NCBI GenBank assembly: GCA_004764695.1
Contig: SMSO01000036.1
Coordinates: 1,322,001 to 1,386,000, forward strand
From: Schizochytrium sp. TIO01
Taxonomy: Eukaryota; Sar; Bigyra; Thraustochytrida; Thraustochytriidae
Direction: 5' to 3'
Length of the DNA stretch: 64,000 bases
Part shown: positions 5,102-54,814 of the stretch, piece after piece
Layout of the letters: each line of letters begins with the position of its first letter
Position numbering within the stretch: the first letter of the stretch is position 1
The notes under the pieces: generated by a model
What the model was told of the DNA's origin: nothing
Databases searched by the model: none
Seen by the model: the letters and a program-made list of their open reading frames with translations, nothing else
Position numbers and translations under genes: made by a program

Positions 5102-8100
5102 TCAAGAGCGCACTATACGCCTTCTTTTGTACGTTTGATCTGCCCTGTAGTTGCGTATGGCATCAACGATGTCTGCGCCAGCATTGAGTTCTTGACATAA
5201 AAGCTCGCATTCTCTAATACTATGCATGGCGAGGCTCAGAAGCGCACTACATGCCTTTTGTTGTACAACAGCATCTTCTTGGTGCCTACGCATGGCATTA
5301 ATAATATCTGCACCGGCATTCAGATCATTACGAAGAATGATACAGTTAAGACCATTATTGCAAGTTAAGCCCATAAGTGCACCGCATGCATTTTGTTGAA
5401 TAATTTTATCTTCAGGGTGATTGCGCATGGTCTGAGCAATGGCCGCACCAGCCCTGTCAATTTCACAAAGATTCTTACAATTACTAGGACTGTTGCAACT
5501 TAAGTTCATAAGCAACACGCAAGCCTCTCGTTGCAAGGTAATATCTAAGCGGTGCCTATACATGGCCTGAACAATGGCGTTGCCAGCGTTGAGATTTTGA
5601 CAAAGAATCTCACGATTGCGAGTATTGCCTGCAGTAAAATTTATCAGTGCGCCAAACGCTTTCAGTTGTAGAATTACATCGCCAGGGTGCATGCGCATGG
5701 CATTAACAATGACTGCACCAGCATTGAGATCTTGACAAAGAATCTTTCGATTACGAGTATTACTGCAAGTTAAGCCCATAAGTGCACCACATGCATTTTG
5801 TTGAATAATTTTATCTTCAGGGTGATTGCGCATGGTCTGAGCAATGGCCGCACCAGCCCTGTTAATTTCACAAAGAATCTTACAATTACTAGGACTGTTG
5901 CAACTTAAGTTCGTAAGCAACATGCACGCCTCTCGTTGCAAAGTAATATCTAAGCGGTGCCTATACATGGCCTGAACAATGGCGTTGCCAGCGTTGAGAT
6001 TTTGACAAAGAATCTCACAATTGCGAGTATTGCCTGCAGTAAAATTTATCAGTGCGCCAAACGCTTTCAGTTGTAGAATTACATTGTCGGGGTGTATGCC
6101 CATGGCGTTAACAATGGCTTTACCAGCGCCAAGAAATTGACAAAGAATCTCACGATTACAAGCATTATTGTGGGATAAATGCATCAGCTTATCAAACAAG
6201 TTTTGTTGCAGAGTAGTATCGAAGTCATCCTTGTGCATGGCCTTAACTATTTCTGCACCAGTATTAACTTCTCGACAAAATGTCTCACAATCAACAAGAT
6301 TTCCAAAAGTAAAGCTTGAAATTGCGCCATGAGCTTTCTCTAGGAGACTGACATCTCTAGGGTGATTGCACATGGCCTGGACAATGGCTGTGCCAGCTTT
6401 AAGCTCAAGATGAAGATTCTCATGGTTCCAAGCATCACTGCGAGCAAAGTCCATAAGCGCACCACATGCAATTTGTTGAATACGATCATCCCAAGGGTGG
6501 TTTTGCATGGCCTCAACAATGTCTGCACCAGCATTGAGATCTCCACAAAGGAAGTTACAATTACGAACATTATTGCGAGCGAAATCCACCAGCGCAATAC
6601 ACGCGTTCTGTTGCAGAGTCAAATCTTCAGGGTACTTGCGCATGGTCGCAACGATGGCTTTTCCAGCCCCGAGATCTTGACAAAGAATCTCACGATTACG
6701 ATCATTACTGTAAGTCAATATCATAAACACACCGCAAGCACTTTGTTGAATAAGTTTATCTCCAGGATGATTTCGCATGGCCTTAACGACGGCCTCTCCA
6801 GCCTTGAGCTCTTGCTTAATAAACTGGACATCAAAAGCACCGTTGCAAGTTAATTTCATAAGCAACATGTACGCCTCGTCTTGCAATGTACGGTGCGTGC
6901 GCATGGCTTCAAAAATGTATTTTCCAGCTTGGGTATATTCACGAAGAATCTCACAATTATGAGCATTTCCTGTAGCAAGGCTTGACAGCACACGACACGC
7001 GTGCATTTGTAGAGTAACAGCTCGACGGTGCTCACGCATGGCCGCAACGATGGCTGCACCGGCGTTAACATCTTGACAAAGAATCTCACAATTACGAGCA
7101 TGTTCTGTAGCAAGGCTTGACAGCACATGACACGCGTCCTGTTGTAGAGTAACATCTTGTAGATGGTTGCGCATGGCCGCAACGATGGCTGCACCAGCGT
7201 TGCAATCTTGACAAAGAATCTTACAGTTACGAGCATTTCCTGTAGCAAGGCCTGACAGCATACGACACGCGTGCTTTTGTAGAGTAACATCTTGTAGGTG
7301 CTCGCGCATGGCCGCAACAATGGCTTCACCGGCGTTGAGATCTCCACAAAGGAGATTACAATTACGAGGATTTCCTGTAGCAAGGCTTGAAAGCACACGA
7401 CACGCGTCCTGTTGTAGAGTAACATCTTGTAGATGGTTGCGCATGGTTGTAATAATGGTTACAGCAGCGTTGCAGTCTTGACAAAGGGTCTCACAGTTAC
7501 GAGCATTTTCATTAGTCAACTTTGAAAGCAAACTACAAGCGTTCTTTTGTAGAGTAACATCTTGTGGATGCTCGCGCATGGCCGCAACAATGGCTGCACC
7601 GGCGTTGAGATCTTCACAAAGGAAGTTACAATTACGAACACTACTGTGAGCAAACTTCATCAGCGCAATACACGCGTTCTGTTGCAGAGTCGCATCTTGA
7701 GGGTACTTGCGCATGGCCGCAACGATGGCTTTTCCAGCCCCGAGATCTTGACAAAGAATCTCACGATTACGATCATTACTGTAAGTCAATATCATAAACA
7801 CACCGCAAGCACTTTGTTGAATAAGTTTATCTCCAGGATGATTTCGCATGGCCTTAACGACGGCCTCTCCAGCCTTGAGCTCTTGCTTAATAAACTGGAC
7901 ATCAAAAGCACCGTTGCAAGTTAATTTCATAAGCAACATGTACGCCTCGTCTTGCAATGTACGGTGCGTGCGCATGGCTTCAAAAATGTATTTTCCAGCT
8001 TGGGTATATTCACGAAGAATCTCACAATTATGAGCATTTCCTGTAGCAAGGCTTGACAGCACACGACACGCGTGCATTTGTAGAGTAACAGCTCGACGGT

Positions 8101-11100
8101 GCTCACGCATGGCCGCAACGATGGCTGCACCAGCGTTGAGATCTTGACAAAGAATCTCACAATAATGATCGTTTTCTATAGTAAACTTTGAAAGCAAACT
8201 ACAAGCGTTCTTTTGTAGAGTAACATCTTGACGGTGCTCGCGCATGGCCGCAACAATGGCTTCACCGGCGTTGAGATCTTCACAAAGGAAGTTACAATTA
8301 CGAACACTACTGTGAGCAAACTTCATCAGCGCAATACACGCGTTCTGTTGCAGAGTCGCATCTTGAGGGTACTTGCGCATGGCCGCAACGATGGCTTTTC
8401 CAGCCCCGAGATCTTGACAAAGAATCTCACGATTACGGGCCTTACTGTAAGTCAATATCATAAACACACCGCAAGCACTTTGTTGAATAAGGTTATCTCC
8501 AGGATGATTTCGCATGGCCTTAACGACGGCCTCACCGGCCTTGAGCTCTTGCTTAATAAACTGGACATCAAAAGCACCGTTGCAAGTTAATTTCATAAGC
8601 AACATGTACGCCTCGTCTTGCAATGTATAGTGTATGCGCATGGCTTCAAAAATGTATTTTCCAGCTTGGGTATATTCGCGAAGAATCTCACAATTACGAG
8701 CATTTTCAATAGTCAACTTTGAAAGCAAACTACAAGCGTTCTTTTGTAGAGTAACATCTTGTGGATGCTCGCGCATGGCCGCAACAATGGCTGCACCGGC
8801 GTTGAGATCTTCACAAAGGAAGTTACAATTACGAACACTACTGTGAGCAAACTTCATCAGCGCAATACACGCGTTCTGTTGCAGAGTCGCATCTTGAGGG
8901 TACTTGCGCATGGCCGCAACGATGGCTTTTCCAGCCCCGAGATCTTGACAAAGAATCTCACGATTACGGGCCTTACTGTAAGTCAATATCATAAACACAC
9001 CGCAAGCACTTTGTTGAATAAGTTTATCTCCAGGATGATTTCGCATGGCCTTAACGACGGCCTCACCGGCCTTGAGCTCTTGCTTAATAAACTGGACATC
9101 AAAAGCACCGTTGCAAGTTAATTTCATAAGCAACATGTACGCCTCGTCTTGCAATGTATAGTGTATGCGCATGGCTTCAAAAATGTATTTTCCAGCTTGG
9201 GTATATTCGCGAAGAATCTCACAATTACGAGCATTGCTTGTAGCAAGGCTTGACAGCACACGACACGCGTGCTTTTGTAGAGTAACAGCTCGACTGTGCT
9301 GGCGCATGGCCGCAACGATCTCTGCACCAGCGTTGCAATCTTGACAAAGAATCTCACAATTACGAGCATTTTCTGTAGCAAGGCTTGACAGCACACGACA
9401 CGCGTCCTGTTGTAGAGTAAGATCTTTTAGATGGTTGCGCATGGCCGCAACGATGGCTGCACCAGCGTTGCAATCTTGACAAAGAATCTTACAGTTACGA
9501 GCATTTCCTGTAGCAAGGCCTGACAGCACACGACACGCGTGCTTTTGTAGAGTAACAGCTCGACTGTGCTGGCGCATGGCCGCAACGATCTCTGCACCAG
9601 CGTTGCAATCTTGACAAAGAATCTCACAATTGCGAGCATTTCTTGTAGCAAGGCTTGACAGCACACGACACGCGTCCTGTTGTAGTGTAACATATTGACG
9701 GTACTTGCGCATGGCCGCAACGATGGCTTTTCCAGCCCCGAGATCTTGACAAAGAATCTCACGATTACGATCATTTTCTGTAGCAAGGCTTGACAGCACA
9801 TGAAACGCGTCCTGTTGTAGAGTAACATCTTGTAGATGGTTGCGCATGGCCGCAACGATGGCTGCACCGGCGTTAACATCTTGACAAAGAATCTTACAGT
9901 TCTGAGCATTTTTGGTAGAAAGGCCTGACAGCACACCACACGCGTGCTTTTGTAGAGTAACATCTTGTAGGTGCTCACGCATGGCCACAACGATGGCTTC
10001 ACCGGCGTTGAGATCTCCACAAAGGATGTTACAATTACGAACACTACTGCGGGCAAACTTCATCAGCGCAATACACGCGTTCTGTTGCAGAGCCGCATCT
10101 TGAGGGTGCTTGCGCATGGCCGCAACGATGGCTTTTCCAGCCCCGAGATCTTGACAAAGAATCTCACGATTACGATCATTACTGTAAGGCCATATCATAA
10201 ACACACCGCAAGCACTTTGTTGAATAAGGTTATCTCCAGGATGATTTCGCATGGCTTGAACGACGGCCTCACCGGCCTGAAGCTCTTGCTTAATAAACTG
10301 GACATCAAAAGCACCGTTGCAAGTTAATTTCATAAGCAACAGGTACGCCTCGTCTCGCAATGTATAGAACATGTGCTTGGCTTCAAAAATGTATTTTCCA
10401 GCTTTGGTATATTCGCGAAGAATCTCACAATTACGAGCATTTTCTGTAGCAAGGCTTGACAGCACACGACACGCGTCCTGTTGTAGAGTAGCATCTTGAC
10501 GGTGCTCGCGTATGGCCGCAATAATGATTACAGCAGCGTTGCAGTCTTGACAAAGAATCTCACGATTACGAGCATTTCCTGTAGCAAGGCTTGACAGCAC
10601 ACGACACGCGTCCTGTTGTAGAGTAACATCTTGACGGTGCTGGCGCATGGCTGCAACGATCTCTGCACCAGCGTTGCAATCTTGACAAAGAATCTCACAA
10701 TTACGAGCATTTTCTGTAGCAAGGCTTGACAGCACACGACACGCGTCCTGTTGTAGAGTAACATCTTGACGGTGCTGGCGCATGGCTGCAACGATCTCTG
10801 CACCAGCGTTGCAGTCTTGACAAAGAATCTCACGATTAGGAGCATTTCCTGTAGCAAAGCTTGAAAGCACACGACACGCGTTCTTTTGTAGAGTAACATC
10901 TTGTAGGTGCTCGCGCATAGCCACAATGATGGCTGCACCAGCGTTGAGTTCTTGGCAAAGAATCTCACAATTACGAGCCTTTCCTATAGTAAAGTCTGAG
11001 CGCAAGCTATACGTGTGCTTTTGTAGACTAATCTCTTGTAGGTGCTCGCGCATGGCCGCAACAATGGCTTCACTGTCGTTGAGATCTCCACAAAGGAGAT

Positions 11101-13003
11101 TACAATTACGAACACTACTGTGGGCAAACTTCATCAGCGCAATACACGCGTCCTGTTGCAGAGTAACATCTTGAGGGTAGTTGAGCATGGCCGCAACGAT
11201 GGCTTTTCCAGCCCCGAGATCTTGACAAAGAATCTCACGATTACGGGCCTTACTGTAAGTCAAGGTCATTAACACACCGCATGCACATTTTTGAATAAGG
11301 TTATCTCCAGGATGATTTCGCATGGCCTTAACGACGGCCTCACCGGCCTTGAGCTCTTGCCTAATAAACTGGACATCAAAAGCACCGTTGCAAGTTAATT
11401 TCACAAGCAACATGTACGCCTCGTCTTGCAATGTACGGTGCATGCGCATGGCTTCAAAAATGTATTTTCCAGCTTTGGTATATTCGCGAAGAATGTCACA
11501 ATTACGAGCATTGCTTGTAGCAAGGATTGACAGCACACGACACGCGTCCTGTTGTAGAGTAAGATCTTGTAGATGGTTGCGCATGGCCGCAACAATGGCT
11601 TCACTGGCGTTGAGATCTCCACAAAGGAGATTACAATTACAAACACTACTGTGGGCAAACTTCATCAGCGCAATACACGCGTCCTGTTGCAGAGTAACAT
11701 CTTGAGGGTACTTGCGCATGGCCGCAACGATGGCTTTTCCAGCCCCGAGATCTTGACAAAGAATCTCACGATTACGGGCCTTACTGTAAGTCAAGGTCAT
11801 TAACACACCGCATGCACATTTTTGAATAAGGTTATCTCCAGGATGATTTCGCATGGCCTTAACGACGGCCTCACCGGCCTTGAGCTCTTGCCTAATAAAC
11901 TGGACATCAAAAGCACCGTTGCAAGTTAATTTCATAAGCAACATGTACGCCTCGTCTTGCAATGTACGGTGCATGCGCATGGCTTCAAAAATGTATTTTC
12001 CAGCTTTGGTATATTCGCGAAGAATCTCACAATTACGAGCATTGCTTGTAGCAAGGATTGACAGCACACGACACGCGTCCTGTTGTAGAGTAACATCTTG
12101 TAGATGGTTGCGCATGGCCGCAACGATGGCTGCACCAGCGTTGCAATCTTGACAAAGAATCTTACAGTTACGAGCATTTTCTGTAGCAAGGCTTGACAGC
12201 ACACGACACGCGTGCTTTTGTAGAGTAACATCTTGTAGGTGCTCGCGCATGGCCGCAACGATGGCTTCACCGGCGTTGAGATCTCCACAAAGGAGGTTAC
12301 AAATACGAACACTACTGCGGGCAAACTTCATCAGCGCAATACACGCGTGCTTTTGTAGAGTAACATCTTGACGGTGCTCGCGCATGGCCGCAATAATGGT
12401 TACAGCAGCGTTGCAGTCTTGACAAAGAATCTTACAATTACGAGCATTTCTTGTAGCAAGGCTTGACAGGACACGACACGCGGGCCTTTGTAGAGTAACA
12501 TCTTGTAGATGGTTGCGCATGGCCGCAAGGATGGCTGCACCAGCGTTGAGATCTTGACAAAGAATCTCACAATAATGATCGTTTTCTATAGTAAACTTTG
12601 AAAGCAAACTACAAGCGTTCTTTTGTAGAGTAACATCTTGTAGGTGCTCGCGCATGGCCGCAACAATGGCTGCACCGGCGTTGAGATCTCCACAAAGGAG
12701 ATTACAATTACGAGAATTTCCTATAGTAAAGCTTGACATCACACGACACGCATTCTGTTGCAGAGTAACATCTTGACGGCGCTTGCGCATAGCCTCTAGA
12801 ATTAATGAAGCTACATTGCGACAAAAGACGCCAGAAGACTCGTCGTCAGTGACAACGTTTCGCTGTATGAAGTATCACACTTTTACAGGAAATTGTCCAT
12901 TGTCGAGACTCAGGTGTAGAGTGGTCAAAAATTGTTGCTGCTCTTGGCTGAGAGTGCCTTGAGGCACGGTGTTTCTAGCCCGGCTTTCGTCTGCTGCGCT
13001 CAT
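5102..13003 (-). CDS. Giant cysteine-rich armadillo-like repeat protein
   Basis: The uninterrupted frame 12790-5102 (2,562 residues, TGA stop) is almost entirely repeats of about 45 residues, roughly 57 copies. The consensus is TLQQDACRVLSSLA-x-(5)-NCEILCQDLNAG-A-IVAAMR-x-H. Helix-forming hydrophobic spacing and the AC-x-L / AG-x-x-IV-x-AM pattern match armadillo/ARM-like solenoids, so a protein-binding scaffold is inferred. Cysteines recur at the same 3-4 repeat positions. The frame continues upstream of 12790 into another recognisable partial repeat, without an ATG, to an in-frame TGA at 12877-12875. Beyond it, in the same frame, MSAADESRARNTVPQ starts at 13003. Removing a 24-nt GTAAAAG...ATACAG segment (12886-12863) joins both parts into 2,625 residues; I used that start. 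The last ~400 residues are the most diverged repeats, while the middle is nearly identical at DNA level. There is no signal peptide or membrane segment. Confidence 0.85.
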
Positions 13004-14035: not shown

Positions 14036-14510
<475 letters not shown>

Positions 14511-15383: not shown

Positions 15384-15728
15384 ATGCGCCCAAACTTAGA
15401 ATTCAGTGTCTTACAACAATGTATCTACTCTATAAACTTGGAGACAAACTTCTTCAGCGTGCTGAGAAGTCAAGAAAAGCAAGATGATCCATATGATACA
15501 AGAAATGCTAGTTTTAAGCGTCATTTCAGAAAACGATTATGTATCTCTGAAAATGAAGAAGCCAACTACTACACTGGGAGAGAAAAAGCCCATTACGGAA
15601 CTCAAGAGCTTATGCAATATGATAATATTTGCAGCAGGAGTTCATTAAGATGCAATCATACTTTTTTACTTAAGCGACCCAGGACAACATTTTCAGCCAG
15701 ATCCCATTTTACTCTGCCTCAAACATAA
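15384..15728 (+). CDS. Hypothetical protein, 114 residues (weak)
   Basis: This is an ATG-started open frame ending TAA just before the hairpin array. The product is basic and polar, with no membrane segment, repeats or known motif. Base composition resembles the surrounding spacer, and nothing upstream marks a promoter. It may be chance. I list it only because it is the longest frame in this interval. Confidence 0.2.
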   Translation: MRPNLEFSVLQQCIYSINLETNFFSVLRSQEKQDDPYDTRNASFKRHFRKRLCISENEEANYYTGREKAHYGTQELMQYDNICSRSSLRCNHTFLLKRPRTTFSARSHFTLPQT

Positions 15729-15837
15729 ACAAAGCAGAACATAAGCAAGTTGTAATTCCAAGTTAAGTTTTTTTTCATTTATAATTAAATTCATGAAAAA
15801 ATAAAAGTGGAATGATTATTAAAAATATATATCAACT

Positions 15838-16376
15838 CCAGGGTCGTTAGAAGATCAAATAAAAAATCCCCGCCTTCCATTCCTTTTTTAAACTTTTAAA
15901 AACAGAATGAATGGCGGAGTACACAACAGATAATGTAAGCAAGAACCAGAGAAACCAACTATTTAAAGCAGAAGGGCTCAAAACAACTCGTTGCCGATTC
16001 GCGTCCCCGAAGGGAGCGAATTGCTCATCAATGGCATGTTTCCGACGAGGTCGAAAGGCATGCCGAGGCTTCCCCCAAATTGACAACGAGGTCGACTTTT
16101 CATCGCCCGTAGAAGCTACGTCATCAACTGTAAAGTTGAAAACGGAAGTTGGAAATATAGACTCGATCCTGTAGAGTGTGGTCTAATTTCGATTGTCACT
16201 CTCGATGCGTATGTGGCTCACACCGGATGGCAAACTTACTGCCGTGGGTTGCATATTTATTAATGAAATAAAACGATGCCATTCAATGACAGTAGCTTCC
16301 AAAGTCTGTGGCCAGACACACCAGCGACAATATTAAACCTTGTCTTCCTAGTTATGAATCAAATATTATACCCTGG
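15838..16376. repeat. Hairpin-rich core, copy A (candidate structured RNA or MITE-like element)
   Basis: It is bounded by a 7-bp inverted pair, CCAGGGT (15838-15844) and ACCCTGG (16370-16376). Inside are stem-loops: 15868-15919 (long imperfect stem, CCGCC...GGCGG); 15997-16021 (ATTCGC-TCCC, loop CGAA, then GGGA-GCGAAT); 16033-16064 (GGCATG-TTTC-GAC stem with two bulges); 16108-16120 (CGTAG/CTACG); 16124-16139 (TCAACT/AGTTGA); 16173-16202 (AGAGTG/CACTCT); 16229-16243 (GGCA/TGCC); 16304-16317 (GTCTG/CAGAC, loop TGGC). A plus-strand frame of 87 residues from 15911 differs in frame from copies B and C, which argues against a conserved protein. The strand of transcription is unknown. Confidence 0.55.
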
Positions 16377-16400
16377 TAGCCTAATCAAGATGAGTTTTTT

Positions 16401-17238
16401 AAATTATTCTTTTAAAACTTGGACTTATTATATATGACATTGGGTCACATAAAATTAGTGCTGTTGTAGTCTTTAAGGAAACTAAAACTACGCAGAGTTT
16501 ATGATACTGTACGTAGGAAAGTCCTGTTTCATTTATAATTTTAGAAAACATAGCTCTAAAATTAGTTTTAGCTACTAGATTTGCTACCTTCTGATCCATA
16601 CAATTCACTCCTAATAAATCAAGTTGGCTGCAGGTAATCAGTCCTGTCAATCATCAAGTCACCATCCGAGGAATCAGATAGACAACGTTGATTTATTTGC
16701 TCCTTCTTAAAGACTTTAAAAGATTCATGCCCGAGGAGATGTTTCAAAGGTATAGCCACATTGTGTCACAAGGCTAGTCGTTACGGCGCGAAGTAAACTT
16801 TTAATCAAAAATAAATTAAGCCTCTGAAAATAAGTTGTTAAATGATACATCAAAATTCGTATGAGACTTTAAGCTGCCTTTCAATTATGAACCTGATTTG
16901 ATCTCTCGACCACAACATCAACACAGGAGGTGACATAAGATTGCGATTATCTTCAATCTTTCATACTGCATACACATTCGGGATTCGAGTTGCAAGTCCC
17001 GGATCATCTTCGAACGATAGAACCAACCCTTCAATGCATAATACACCACGGTTACAAACGCAAATGCAACGCCAAATGAATACAAGGCAACAATGGCAGG
17101 ACTTTAAGATGCAAGAGTTGCACCTCGATAACATGAATATTAAACTCAGTAGTATATATCTCTTCTTTTACAAACGTACTTTCCATGCAGAACTCTGAAT
17201 GTTCCATCACCAATATGCGATGCTATTTCATAAATCAT
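16401..17238. other. Diverged spacer of repeat unit 1
   Basis: This is homologous to 17811-18720 but with many substitutions and indels. It has no conserved open frame. The minus-strand frame 16650-16399 has no intact counterpart in unit 2. From about 17020 it becomes nearly identical to the end of unit 2. Confidence 0.6.
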
Positions 17239-17245
17239 ATCAACT

Positions 17246-17783
17246 CCAGGGTCGTTAGAAGATCAAATAAAAAATCCCCGCCTTCCATTCCTTTTTTTAA
17301 ACTTTTAAAAACAGAATGAATGGCGGAGTACACAACAGATAATGTAAGCAAGAACCAGAGAAACCAACTATTTAAGCAGAAGGGCTCAAAACAACTCGTT
17401 GCCGATTCGCGTCCCCGAAGGGAGCGAATTGCTCATCAATGGCATGTTTCCGACGAGGTCGAAAGGCATGCCGAGGCTTCCCCCAAATTGACAACGAGGT
17501 CGACTTTTCATCGCCCGTAGAAGCTACGTCATCAACTGTAAAGTTGAAAACGGAAGTTGGAAATATAGACTCGATCCTGTAGAGTGTGGTCTAATTTCGA
17601 TTGTCACTCTCGATGCGTATGTGGCTCACACCGGATGGCAAAATGGCTGCCGTGGGTTGCATATTTATAATGAAATAAAACGATGCCATTCAATGACAGT
17701 AGCTTCCAAAGTCTGTGGCCAGACACACCAGCGACAATATTAAACCTTGTCTTCCTAGTTATGAATCAAATATTATACCCTGG
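17246..17783. repeat. Hairpin-rich core, copy B
   Basis: It has the same bounding pair CCAGGGT / ACCCTGG and the same stem-loops as copy A. It differs by single-base indels (one extra T in the T-run, one A fewer in TTTAAGCAG) and in the loop of the GGCA/TGCC hairpin (AAATGGC instead of AACTTAC), with the stem unchanged. The plus-strand frame from 17320 is 66 codons (MAEYTTDNVSKNQRNQLFK...), frameshifted relative to copy A after residue 19. Confidence 0.55.
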
Positions 17784-17810
17784 TAGCCTAATCAAGATGA
17801 GAGTTTTTTA

Positions 17811-18720
17811 ATATAATAAATTTATCTTCTATACATGTGTCATTGTACTGGCGTAGACTCACATAAAAACTAGAGTTGCCATTGTTCACGATCTTTAACA
17901 TGCTCTTCATCGCAAGCCGCATATGAGATGCAAGATAAATTGAAAACGTATAGGTTATAAAGCAATATCTAGCCAAGTCCTGCTTGAGTTACAGTTTTCA
18001 AGAAGCACGGCTATAAAAACAATTTTACTACCTCGTTGATCTATATAATTTATCACTTGCAATCAATTAGGTTGGAAACAGTCGGTCTTTTCAATTGCCA
18101 AGGCAATATGCGATGAATCGAATCAGTAGCTTTGACTCCTTGTTCTTACAAACTTAAAAAGTGATGGGTAGAATTCGTAGGAGGAAATGTTTCAAAGGTT
18201 TAGCCACATTGTGAAGAGTTACAAGGAAGTTAACTTTTTTTAAAATAAAGTTTGAAAAATAAATCATTATACAGTAGTACCTCGGCAGATAGACATAATT
18301 AGTAATTAGTAGGCTAGCTAAATATATAGTCTCCAGGATGCAATCTTCAAGTCATGAATTTGATTTAGTTTCTCGATCACAACAACACAGGAAGTAACCC
18401 TAGCATTGCAATCAAATTGAATCCTTTGGATTGGATACAAGGTATTTCACCAAAAAGAGTGCGGGATCGAGTTGAAAGTTTCTGATCATGATCGAACGAT
18501 AGAACCAACCCTTTAATGCATAATACACCACGGTTACAAACGCAAATGCAACGCCAAATGAATACAAGGCAACAATGGCAGGACTTCAAAATGCAAGAGT
18601 TGCACCCAGATAACAAAAAATCCAAACTCAGTAGTATATATCCCTTCTTAAACAAACGTACTTTCCACGCAGAACTCTGAATGTTCCATCACCAATATGC
18701 GATGCTATTTCATAAATCAT
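17811..18720. other. Diverged spacer of repeat unit 2
   Basis: This is a counterpart of 16401-17238. The last ~230 bases (from about 18490) match unit 1 closely, including the run through ACAAACGCAAATGCAACGCC. No gene is supported. Confidence 0.6.
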
Positions 18721-19139
18721 ATCAACTCCAGGGTCGTTAGAAGATCAAATAAAAAATCCCCGCCTTCCATTCCTTTTTTTAAACTTTTAAAAACAGAATG
18801 AATGGCGGAGTACACAACAGATAATGTAAGCAAGAACCAGAGAAACCAACTATTTAAGCAGAAGGGCTCAAAACAACTCGTTGCCGATTCGCGTCCCCGA
18901 AGGGAGCGAATTGCTCATCAATGGCATGTTTCCGACGAGGTCGAAAGGCATGCCGAGGCTTCCCCCAAATTGACAACGAGGTCGACTTTTCATCGCCCGT
19001 AGAAGCTACGTCATCAACTGTAAAGTTGAAAACGGAAGTTGGAAATATAGACTCGATCCTGTAGAGTGTGGTCTAATTTCGATTGTCACTCTCGATGCGT
19101 ATGTGGCTCACACGGATGGCAAAATGGCTGCCGTGGGTT
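18721..19139. repeat. Hairpin-rich core, copy C, 3'-truncated
   Basis: It is nearly identical to copy B up to the GGCA/TGCC hairpin and CCGTGGGTT, then joins unrelated sequence. It therefore lacks the 3' bounding arm ACCCTGG and the GTCTG/CAGAC hairpin. It carries a one-base deletion (CACACGG for CACACCGG). The 66-codon frame from 18802 is the same as in copy B. Confidence 0.6.
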
Positions 19140-20420
19140 TGAACCTTGCTTTGGAATGTAGAAGCAATTCAATCTCTCGTAACCTCTCAGACAAAGCAAC
19201 ATAGAGATGACCATTGACTGGTCCTGAGACAGACTTTTGCCAAGAACCAGTCAAATTTCCTCTCTATCTCCATCGTAATTATAACGAACCAAATATTGGT
19301 TGGCCTTGCAGAATGACTGGCTAATAGACTTGGAAACCCCAAATTATTTCCTCTCGCAGTTGCGGAGGCCAACGAGATGACTCGCTGAGGTGGCTTCCAT
19401 TTGCACATTCAGCATTAACTCTCCTAGATGGCATCTTCAAGCTAAGTTCGTTTGGTTGGCTCTAGCTAGATACAGTGCCAGGGAAGAGTCACGTGACCAT
19501 TGTCAGAAATTCGCGCTGACAACGAAGTTCTGGTCCTTTGATTTACCCACTAAGTCATCATCAGGTACTTATTTGGCATAGCTTATAGAATATTGTCCTG
19601 CAACGTAGCTTTTTTTGGTGGCTTTGGTACAGTTGGGACGTGGTAGTTAGGTTAGACTTGGTGCACACATTCAGAAATCAAAGCTACCCAAAAATGGGAC
19701 AAGTTGCAGTTTTGAAAACCTGAGGTCATACAAAGCATGAAGGACTTTCACTAATGCGAAGGACCAGCACACCCAGCCTAGATTGCCTGTGGCGTAGCCA
19801 GTGTAGTCACTTCAGCTTCTTCTTGTAGTGAAGTTCATTTTTTTAAATCAGGTGTATACTGATCAACTCGTTATTGATGTGCTCAAGAGATCTTGAGACC
19901 TGAGTCGTTCAATTCTATGGAAAAATTTGTTTCCTTATCATGACGAAACTACTCCCAAATATTAGTCCATATTGGCGCTTCTACCCAGGGAAAAGTCTGG
20001 TAAAGATGACATATATATTACTACTTCTATTAGCGAAGCATAAACCTAGGGCTTCTTAATACAAGGAATACAAGACCTGTCAAGAAACATAGCAGGGAAG
20101 AACTTGTAGTTTCTTGGATAATAAACTCTTCATCGTATTCTACGTGTGCACCCTTTGAAATTTGACCCGACGATGAAGACCTATTCCATTTATAAATATC
20201 ACTTTGCTACTAACTGTAGTAGCAATAACTGCGCCAGGACTAGTAAGTAGTTCTCTTATTTAATTAAAAATTGGAGAAAGGAAAGGAAAGATAGAGGAGC
20301 TAGATCGTAGTTCTGCTCAAGAGCTATAATTGTGATGAACCTTTGAGACAAAGACGAAGTTAACGTAGTACCTAGCGTAAACTCCATCATAATTGTAGTC
20401 AATTTATAAACAGAAGTGAT

Positions 20421-35384: not shown

Positions 35385-35955
35385 AAGAACCATTTATCAT
35401 ATCCAAACTGAGCACTTCTCTCTTTGTGCATCGAAATTTCCTCCTTACAATCCATTTCTCTCACAAGTCTTATGTAAAAGCCCGCCTGATTACCTGCCTG
35501 TAAGCCGTCGTTCTCCTTGTTGCTTTTTACTTGTGGTGCGGCTGCTGAATGTCAGACACATTAAAATATACTTTCTATCTCAAAGCAACAAGCCTAAAAA
35601 GAAAACACACATCAATCTTTTTACGCATTCTTATATCCATGCTTCATGTTTTCTCTCCTCATTCCCATTTCTGCTCTTGGCGAGCAGCACATATTGTTTT
35701 TCCTGGTATCAAAGCACTTGAAGTAGAAAAACCTGCACAACCCAATTATGTACAAGTTGGGTTGTGCAATTTTTTTTCCCTTGCCAATTTTTCCCTTTGT
35801 AGTAAAAACAGAGTAAACTTTGGGGCGAATCAAATCGTCGAAAGCTTGATCTTCAAACCTCCGCCCACGTGTATGCAGTGCATTCTGACCGCAAAGCTCT
35901 AGGGGCTTTGAAGTTCCTCCAAGCGGTCGTTAATAGAATCTGCCCGGATCTCAAA
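35385..35955. other. Spacer with a strong stem-loop
   Basis: About 570 bases between two plus-strand genes. It contains the hairpin plus T-run at 35735-35777. The frame after it stays open from 35869 into the next gene but has no ATG before 35956. Confidence 0.6.
35735..35777 (+). other. 11-bp perfect stem-loop followed by T8
   Basis: GCACAACCCAA (35735-35745) pairs perfectly with TTGGGTTGTGC (35757-35767) around an 11-nt loop. AA and eight T residues (35770-35777) follow. The shape resembles an intrinsic terminator or the 3' end of an RNA polymerase III transcript. It lies 350 bases after the WD40 stop codon and 180 before the next start, so it could shape a 3' or 5' UTR. Confidence 0.6.
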
Positions 35956-53053: not shown

Positions 53054-54814
53054 GCACCTGTAGATAATGTGTGGAGGTCACGAACGATCGTGGCTGCTGG
53101 AGCACGCAGGAATCGATGATACGCTCGCTCACATCCATGCACGCAAGGCCTCCGTCCGTTTGGGAATACCATCGTGCCTTTTGGCTCTTGCGGGTGGCTG
53201 CGGCAGAGGCGATCGAGCTTGGTGATTTGAGATGGCAGCTTTCCGCAAATTGATTGAGTTGGCCGACAATCAATCAAAACTCGCGAGTTAGTTTCTTCGA
53301 CTGTGTGCGGGTTTACGCAGATGGTAAGGAGCTCCTAGGCAGTCTTAGGCAACGCTGTCCTCTGGAAGGAACTCAGTGACTCAGGTGTTGCATAGACGTC
53401 TTCAGCTCGTGTTTTGAAATGTATGGTTTAGGCCTTAAACGAGCGAAACCTTTTTTAAAAGATGCTTTTCCATCTTTAAAATTTAAGACTGAGGCAAATA
53501 CCCACGACGCTTATGCTTTGGGCTGTAAACGTGCTGCAATGGTAACTTCAAAAAGAAGCAATAAAGAAATTTAAAGCAATTTAAACCATTACCGTAGTTC
53601 GGAATAAAAGTTGAAACTGACTTGGATCATACTCTTCATTTCATCGCAGCCCTCGACTTGATATGATAACCTTCAATATCGAACTGGCATAAGGGGCGTT
53701 TTTCTTCTCAGCCGTTGTCTCGTGAAGCGCAGGGCGCCACAACTAAGACAACAAAGAAAAGTTTTGAAGGAAAAGATTCTGCCTTAAAGCTTGAGTCGAA
53801 GAGGAGCTTTGTGAAATGCTCTCTAGAGAAGAGGTTCGACTGAGATTGAGCGAGCAACGCCGCCGCTTCTTTTCAGCTTCCCCGCTTGCGCTGCGCAGCA
53901 ATCGAGCCGTGTGCAGATATTGGGGTACTGGTTCAGGCTTTTCATACCTTTTGGACTTTTTAGTTCATTACTAGTAGTTTTTTGTTTTTTTGTTTTTTGT
54001 TTTTTTAATTTAAAATATTTTTTTTAAAAAAATATTATTAACTATTTTTTAAACATTAGAAATATATATTTAAAAAATGTTTTCAGTTAGTTAGCACAAA
54101 ACAAGGAACACAACACCAAAACAGTTTCGAGGTTTAAACTGTTTACTCATTTATAAAATACTTCTTTATAGTTACTTTTATGTTACAAGGTTTTGTTCTG
54201 TCACGTTTACCTCATTCCATATTTGATTCCTTCAAGAAGTTGAAATTGCATAAAAATTCACAATTGCTGACTTGAACGATATGTTCTTCTCCGACTAAAT
54301 ATTGAATAGCTGAATAGTACCTACCAGGCAAGTAGACATCGCCTTACTCCAAAGTTTTCAACTTGTCGAAGGGACTCCCCAGCGAGTCTGCGCCGTCTTA
54401 TTCAACCCCCCCTCCACTTCCACGAACCATGGCGATACCCAGCCATCACGACCATCCCAGCAGAGCCAAAAGCGATCACGAGAATCAATCCAAAATGGCG
54501 GAAACCTTCGAAATGGCACCAATCACGGCTCGCTCTTCGCTGGCTTCTCGTGCGCACAGTCTCGGGACGGGCAGGAGCTGTCTCTAGGCGAACAATGACG
54601 CTTCGGCAGTCCAAGGACTCCTAGTCGTACATAGGTAGTGCGTACCTATGTAGTATCAGATCAGCGCTCTCTGTATACACATACATACAGAAAGCTGGGC
54701 AGCGAATTCCCACCTTTCAAAGCTCTCTTCTTCGATATGGCACGATCTGAGTCAGGACTCGACACTTGGCATCTTGAAGACAATCAATTTGCAATGGGTG
54801 GCCACGAAGACCCA

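Follow-up and report, generated by a model that had tools for sequence, protein, structure and literature searches.

What kind of feature keeps a hairpin-rich block of about 540 bases nearly unchanged in tandem copies while the sequence between the copies drifts apart? This question is raised by one locus in the window, i.e. the whole 64-kb stretch of DNA analysed here (C35:1322001-1386000, from a genome of 64.06 Mb in 37 contigs). A sequence-only reading had preferred a structured RNA over a protein gene, with a foldback element as the alternative, and the structured RNA can now be named: the block most probably consists of a few U3 snoRNA genes clustered in tandem, and its informative strand is the minus strand. 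U3 is the RNA that eukaryotes use for releasing the small-subunit ribosomal RNA. The locus therefore harbours an ordinary kind of gene, whose divergence is too great for the standard RNA-family cut-off to name the block.

Layout of the array

Blocks beginning with CCAGGGT start at 15838, 17246 and 18728 and form three tandem copies (A, B and C), with unit spacings of 1408 bases from A to B and 1482 bases from B to C. The sequence-only reading had described a near-invariant core present three times; three copies do stand in tandem, but the full 540-bp core occurs in A and B only, as the match of copy C to the other two ends at 19139 after about 410 of the 540 core bases. Its proposed CCAGGGT/ACCCTGG frame is likewise present at the ends of A and B, although these ends are not boundaries, because the identity between A and B extends left to 15829 and right to 16393 (a common stretch of about 565 bases, in A coordinates). 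Over 15838-16393, B departs from A at three substituted bases (16235, 16237, 16238) and in three indels of one base each, the gene blocks of A and B being about 99% alike, and between 15972 and 16197, the U3 stretch of copy A, there is not a single difference. The intervening sequences are as follows:

16400..17230, no strand: spacer A-B; middle diverged, right-hand end about 93% like that of spacer B-C
17806..18712, no strand: spacer B-C; from the alignment of the spacers

That the rest of each unit has diverged strongly, as had been noticed from the letters, is borne out by the middle of the two spacers, which are 62% identical (360/581 aligned positions in a total of 14 alignment blocks, spanning 16411-17013 in A coordinates). 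The 300-base stretch ending in the next core is 93% alike between them.

To the left of the array in the window, a minus-strand open frame of 2,562 codons (5102-12790) consists of ARM-type repeats (Pfam ARM_LRRK2, E 9.6e-70), with direct DNA repeats spaced by 135 bases at 12001-12840. Another minus-strand frame of 103 codons (14162-14473) reads like part of a short-chain dehydrogenase/reductase, judged by a motif, and is perhaps a remnant or an exon.

Probable identity of the repeated block

At curated cut-offs, an Rfam scan of the 64-kb window returned no match in the block. The only curated match in the window is a fragment of bacterial-type SSU rRNA (53280-53633, plus strand, 76.7 bits, model positions 934-1327), which is perhaps a piece of mitochondrial rRNA inserted in the nuclear genome, a guess from reading its sequence. 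A tRNA/tmRNA scan of the window found none. The covariance-model check proposed for the core had a divided outcome: curated cut-offs gave nothing, whereas an Rfam scan of 15500-19500 with an E-value threshold matched Plant_U3 (RF01847) over its full length (1-221/221) on the minus strand of copies A, B and C, with 29.4 bits and E 3.8e-5 each. Scores of 29-30 bits lie far under the gathering score of 80 bits. Other models of the clan to which Plant_U3 belongs also respond to the array and to a dispersed copy described below (overlapping lower-scoring matches of the same clan, six in the array scan and two for the dispersed copy alone, are omitted from the tables). The remaining matches in 15500-19500 all fall below their own cut-offs (GNAS-AS1_3, E 0.003; porB, 2.8; mir-4433, 4.2); the first of them lies at 19314-19350, just outside the array, and inside the array the E-value scan gave no non-U3 match at E 1 or better. 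We read the three units as follows:

15972..16197, minus strand: U3 snoRNA gene copy A; Rfam match 16185-15972, 5' end inferred to lie within about 16184-16197
17380..17605, minus strand: U3 snoRNA gene copy B; Rfam match 17593-17380, RNA stretch identical to A
18862..19087, minus strand: U3 snoRNA gene copy C; Rfam match 19075-18862, RNA stretch identical to A

The RNA stretch comprises 226 positions that are the same in A, B and C. A fourth copy is found on another contig (C33:1628418-1628643, minus strand), where 224/226 positions are identical and the two differences concern the first base and one loop base. Searched alone against Plant_U3, this copy reaches 30.1 bits with E 1.8e-6 (E 1.4e-4 and 3.4e-4 in larger searches). 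Its DNA match to the array spans about 240 bases, i.e. the RNA and little beyond, and its flanks differ from the array flanks save for a short upstream element, so that the RNA is far better conserved than most of its surroundings. In a whole-genome DNA search with 15960-16260 (E up to 10), four places were recovered, and these are the U3 loci. A search for the 5'-domain pattern GACC..AGGATC..TCTATA had five hits, at the four U3 genes and at a single place on contig C31, compared with two for the reversed-pattern control. Wider Rfam scans with E up to 0.5, covering 20, 6 and 12 loci, gave the C33 copy as the only U3 match. The gene count is taken from DNA similarity and the 5'-domain pattern, both of which give lower bounds, and not from a whole-genome search with RF01847, which left all four U3 loci unreported, returned a single match elsewhere (17.6 bits, E 0.51) and also matched one of 14 control genomes, a bacterium.

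The dispersed copy bears on two other explanations of the block. It could be a mobile element of the foldback or another non-autonomous type, whose terminal inverted repeats would be CCAGGGT/ACCCTGG, and 7-base inverted ends on the repeated block in A and B as well as the existence of a dispersed copy would fit. However, the one dispersed match that was examined amounts to the RNA itself and lacks the inverted CCAGGGT/ACCCTGG ends, the identity of A and B runs past these ends, only four loci were found in 64 Mb (a lower bound), and the match to U3 is full-length, which together make this alternative of the sequence-only reading very improbable. Even less can be said for a family of protein genes that share a conserved exon, a reading to which we assign hardly any probability at all. 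Plus-strand open reading frames of 87 and 94 codons do overlap the RNA in copy A (15911-16174) and in the C33 copy (L007 4275-4559, overlapped by a minus-strand frame at L007 4240-4533), but they read different proteins despite near-identical DNA, no frame of at least 80 codons is listed over B or C, and conservation at C33 stops near the RNA ends. Among the listed frames of at least 80 codons, none is common to copies A, B, C and C33.

On the RNA, the boxes GAC, A, C', C and D, named for U3 in PMC2784804 together with A' and B, follow the U3 order. In copy A they are placed as follows:

16183, minus strand: box GAC, AGACC
from 16169, minus strand: core of box A, AGGATCGAGTCTATA
from 16105, minus strand: box C', CGATGA
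from 16030, minus strand: box C, TTGATGA
from 15981, minus strand: box D, TTTTGA

Box C is clear, and the position of box B reads GGGGGAAG and is degenerate; box A' (around CACTCTA) is placed solely by its alignment position. C' starts with C, and D has TTGA instead of CTGA, each one base off the common form. In the predicted fold, C' and D are closed by a GGGC/GCCC stem, next to which tandem G-A pairs of a C'/D kink-turn can form, as reasoned by hand. The 16-base box A string also occurs in nine viral contigs, where the exact stretch in common with U3 is 16-19 bases long and further matches are short and scattered; we take this as chance.

The folding data are in line with a structured RNA read from the minus strand. 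The core (15838-16378) folds at -180.8 kcal/mol on this strand (z -6.4, 0/60 shuffles as low) and less distinctly on the plus strand (z -2.95, 0/60), compared with z -0.9 (11/60) for one spacer stretch of 540 bases as a control, and the description of the core as hairpin-packed is thereby upheld. For the U3 stretch, z is -3.0 on the minus strand (1/300 shuffles as low) and -1.7 on the plus strand (15/300); for the flanks within the core, it is -1.8 on the 5' side (8/200) and -2.3 on the 3' side (3/200). Covariation is not countable, the four RNA copies being nearly identical. According to these predictions, the stem-loops of the sequence-only reading are split among the U3 RNA, its promoter region and a separate downstream hairpin. 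The stem with a CGAA loop is found again as the minus-strand hairpin TTCGCTCCC/GGGACGCGAA of the U3 3' domain. The GGCA/TGCC loop does differ between A and B (16235, 16237, 16238), but it is located upstream of the RNA, in the promoter region, and the imperfect stem of about 20 bp is a real hairpin that lies 51-52 nt beyond the end of the U3 RNA and is separate from it.

Because the Plant_U3 match is full-length, the boxes stand in U3 order and the dispersed copy conserves the RNA, we read each unit as a U3 snoRNA gene with transcription of its own, located on the minus strand of a eukaryotic chromosome, with a probability of roughly 0.9.

Candidate signals around the probable U3 genes

Four genes with one RNA and two sets of flanks make it possible to single out a candidate promoter element and a candidate 3' signal composed of a hairpin and a T-run. 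On the upstream side, CAACCCACGGCAG precedes box GAC by 54-55 nt at 4/4 U3 loci, being exact in three of them and carrying one mismatch in copy C:

16239..16251, minus strand: CAACCCACGGCAG, putative promoter element of copy A; distance to box GAC 55 nt
17647..17659, minus strand: CAACCCACGGCAG, putative promoter element of copy B, exact
19128..19140, minus strand: AAACCCACGGCAG, putative promoter element of copy C, one mismatch to CAACCCACGGCAG

Exact copies of CAACCCACGGCAG number four in the genome, the fourth lying on C36 in what by eye is apparent coding sequence. With up to one mismatch the motif occurs at 55 places, four of them at U3 genes, compared with 24 for the reversed control, and it is therefore not specific on its own. 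One such one-mismatch element, CAGCCCACGGCAG (L007 4222-4234, plus strand), is located about 185 bases 3' of the C33 gene. When 18 of the 51 non-U3 places were scanned against Rfam, together with the U6 and C33 U3 loci, no further snRNA emerged. For plant U3 promoters, PMC9845283 describes a USE (RTCCCACATCG) near -70 and a TATA box near -30. CAACCCACGGCAG has CCCAC in common with this consensus at a similar distance, which is suggestive only, whereas no TATA box was seen by eye about 30 bases upstream of the U3 loci. The U6 snRNA gene (C30:3952404-3952509, L012 1501-1606; 54.3 bits), the only spliceosomal RNA gene recovered, has a TTTATATA box on its upstream side as well as a T8 run; when 400 bases upstream of the gene were read by eye, CAACCCACGGCAG was not seen. 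Family searches for U2 and U5 matched neither here nor in 14 controls and are hence uninformative; motif searches for U2 (5 places) and U4 (11 places), all scanned, gave no U2 or U4 match.

On the downstream side, each array gene is followed by a predicted hairpin and a T-run:

15861..15919, minus strand: copy A, 22-bp imperfect hairpin then T6, 52 nt past the U3 3' end
17269..17328, minus strand: copy B, hairpin and T-run, 51 nt past the U3 end
18751..18810, minus strand: copy C, hairpin and T-run, 51 nt past the U3 end

Downstream of the C33 gene, at a distance of 55 nt from the U3 end, an unlike sequence is predicted to fold into a hairpin of 25 bp with a T-run behind it, and the 3' flank of this gene has z -5.6 (0/200 shuffles as low). 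Among hairpins at 251 T-runs of at least five T in the window, the three U3 ones are strongest (-26.1, -25.4 and -25.4 kcal/mol), a narrow lead over the next at 35788 (-25.3) and 44767 (-24.8), and 0/376 random 140-base windows reach the hairpin value of copy A or the C33 gene. The inverted repeat TGCACAACCCAA/TTGGGTTGTGCA at 35731-35788, with T-runs on both sides, folds nearly as strongly as the U3 hairpins. Since the C33 gene keeps the type of fold with a different sequence, the hairpin and T-run are likely a termination or 3'-processing signal, at or near which the U3 transcript would probably end or be processed.

With these flanks in hand, it can also be asked whether duplication left the tandem copies as U3 pseudogenes, in which case the working gene would be the one at C33 or lie outside the assembly. 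Multi-copy small-RNA genes often include pseudogenes, and copy C ceases to be homologous to A and B at 19139, within the first base of its putative promoter element. Nevertheless, the RNA stretch is unchanged in all three copies though the middle of the A-B spacer is down to 62% identity, and all three retain the 3' hairpin and the upstream element (with one mismatch in C), which renders an array of pseudogenes improbable compared with functional U3 genes.

As functional genes, the units would be transcribed from about 16190 (copy A) toward the T-run near 15861, and the precursor would be trimmed to a U3 of about 215-225 nt. C/D-box proteins would bind this RNA at two sites, C'/D and B/C, and pairing of its hinge and 5' boxes with pre-rRNA would guide the release of 18S rRNA as in other eukaryotes; this role in pre-rRNA cleavage is assigned by analogy with the family.

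The probable U3 genes in comparison and the likely history of the array

The array U3 resembles plant U3 (RF01847) in aligning over the full length with the box order GAC-A'-A-hinge-C'-B-C-D and in a stem-closed 3' domain that holds hairpins. It differs in its score (29-30 bits against a gathering score of 80), its degenerate box B, its TTGA in box D and, compared with the TATA and USE promoters of plant U3 genes (PMC9845283), in that no TATA was seen by eye. Another protist with several U3 genes is Euglena gracilis, for which PMC2784804 reports a minimum of 14, most of them in linkage with U5 or tRNA genes, and intergenic parts that differ among copies, a feature attributed there to duplications. 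Differing intergenic parts are common to both cases, unlike the arrangement, as here three U3 genes stand in direct tandem and one lies elsewhere. Among the matches listed from open-licence papers, no title dealt with U3 in stramenopiles or with this array.

In fission yeast, snU3 and snRNA genes have downstream hairpins for Pac1 (RNase III), whose minimal substrate is a helix of at least 20 nt (PMC8421224). A stable hairpin predicted downstream of U3 is found here as well; in contrast to the yeast genes, it lies 51-55 nt downstream in the array and at C33 and is followed by a T-run, and the RNase III domain PF00636 was not found in this genome by an exon-by-exon search that a split or divergent domain could escape (8/14 controls matched, all of them bacteria). 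Given this negative result, the hairpin and T-run are at least as likely to act in termination as in cutting by RNase III. A bolder and rather doubtful proposal is that the U3 genes of this lineage end in a long hairpin and T-run, arranged as in bacterial intrinsic terminators, that no canonical RNase III would cut, the hairpin either terminating transcription, with the polymerase stalling on the structured transcript, or being cut by an unrecognised nuclease.

Concerning its history, the array would have arisen by tandem duplication; the spacers would then have diverged, and the gene blocks would have stayed alike through the joint action of gene conversion and selection. The divergence of the spacers suggests that the units were not duplicated recently. 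Outside the RNA, the gene blocks are about 99% alike between A and B and mostly not confidently alignable to C33; since selection on the RNA alone does not explain such likeness, gene conversion among the tandem copies is likely.

Taken as U3 genes, these sequences turn a repeat of unexplained nature into a cluster of genes for an RNA central to ribosome making, one that curated cut-offs had missed. They make annotation of U3 possible in this lineage and could join the seed of the family.
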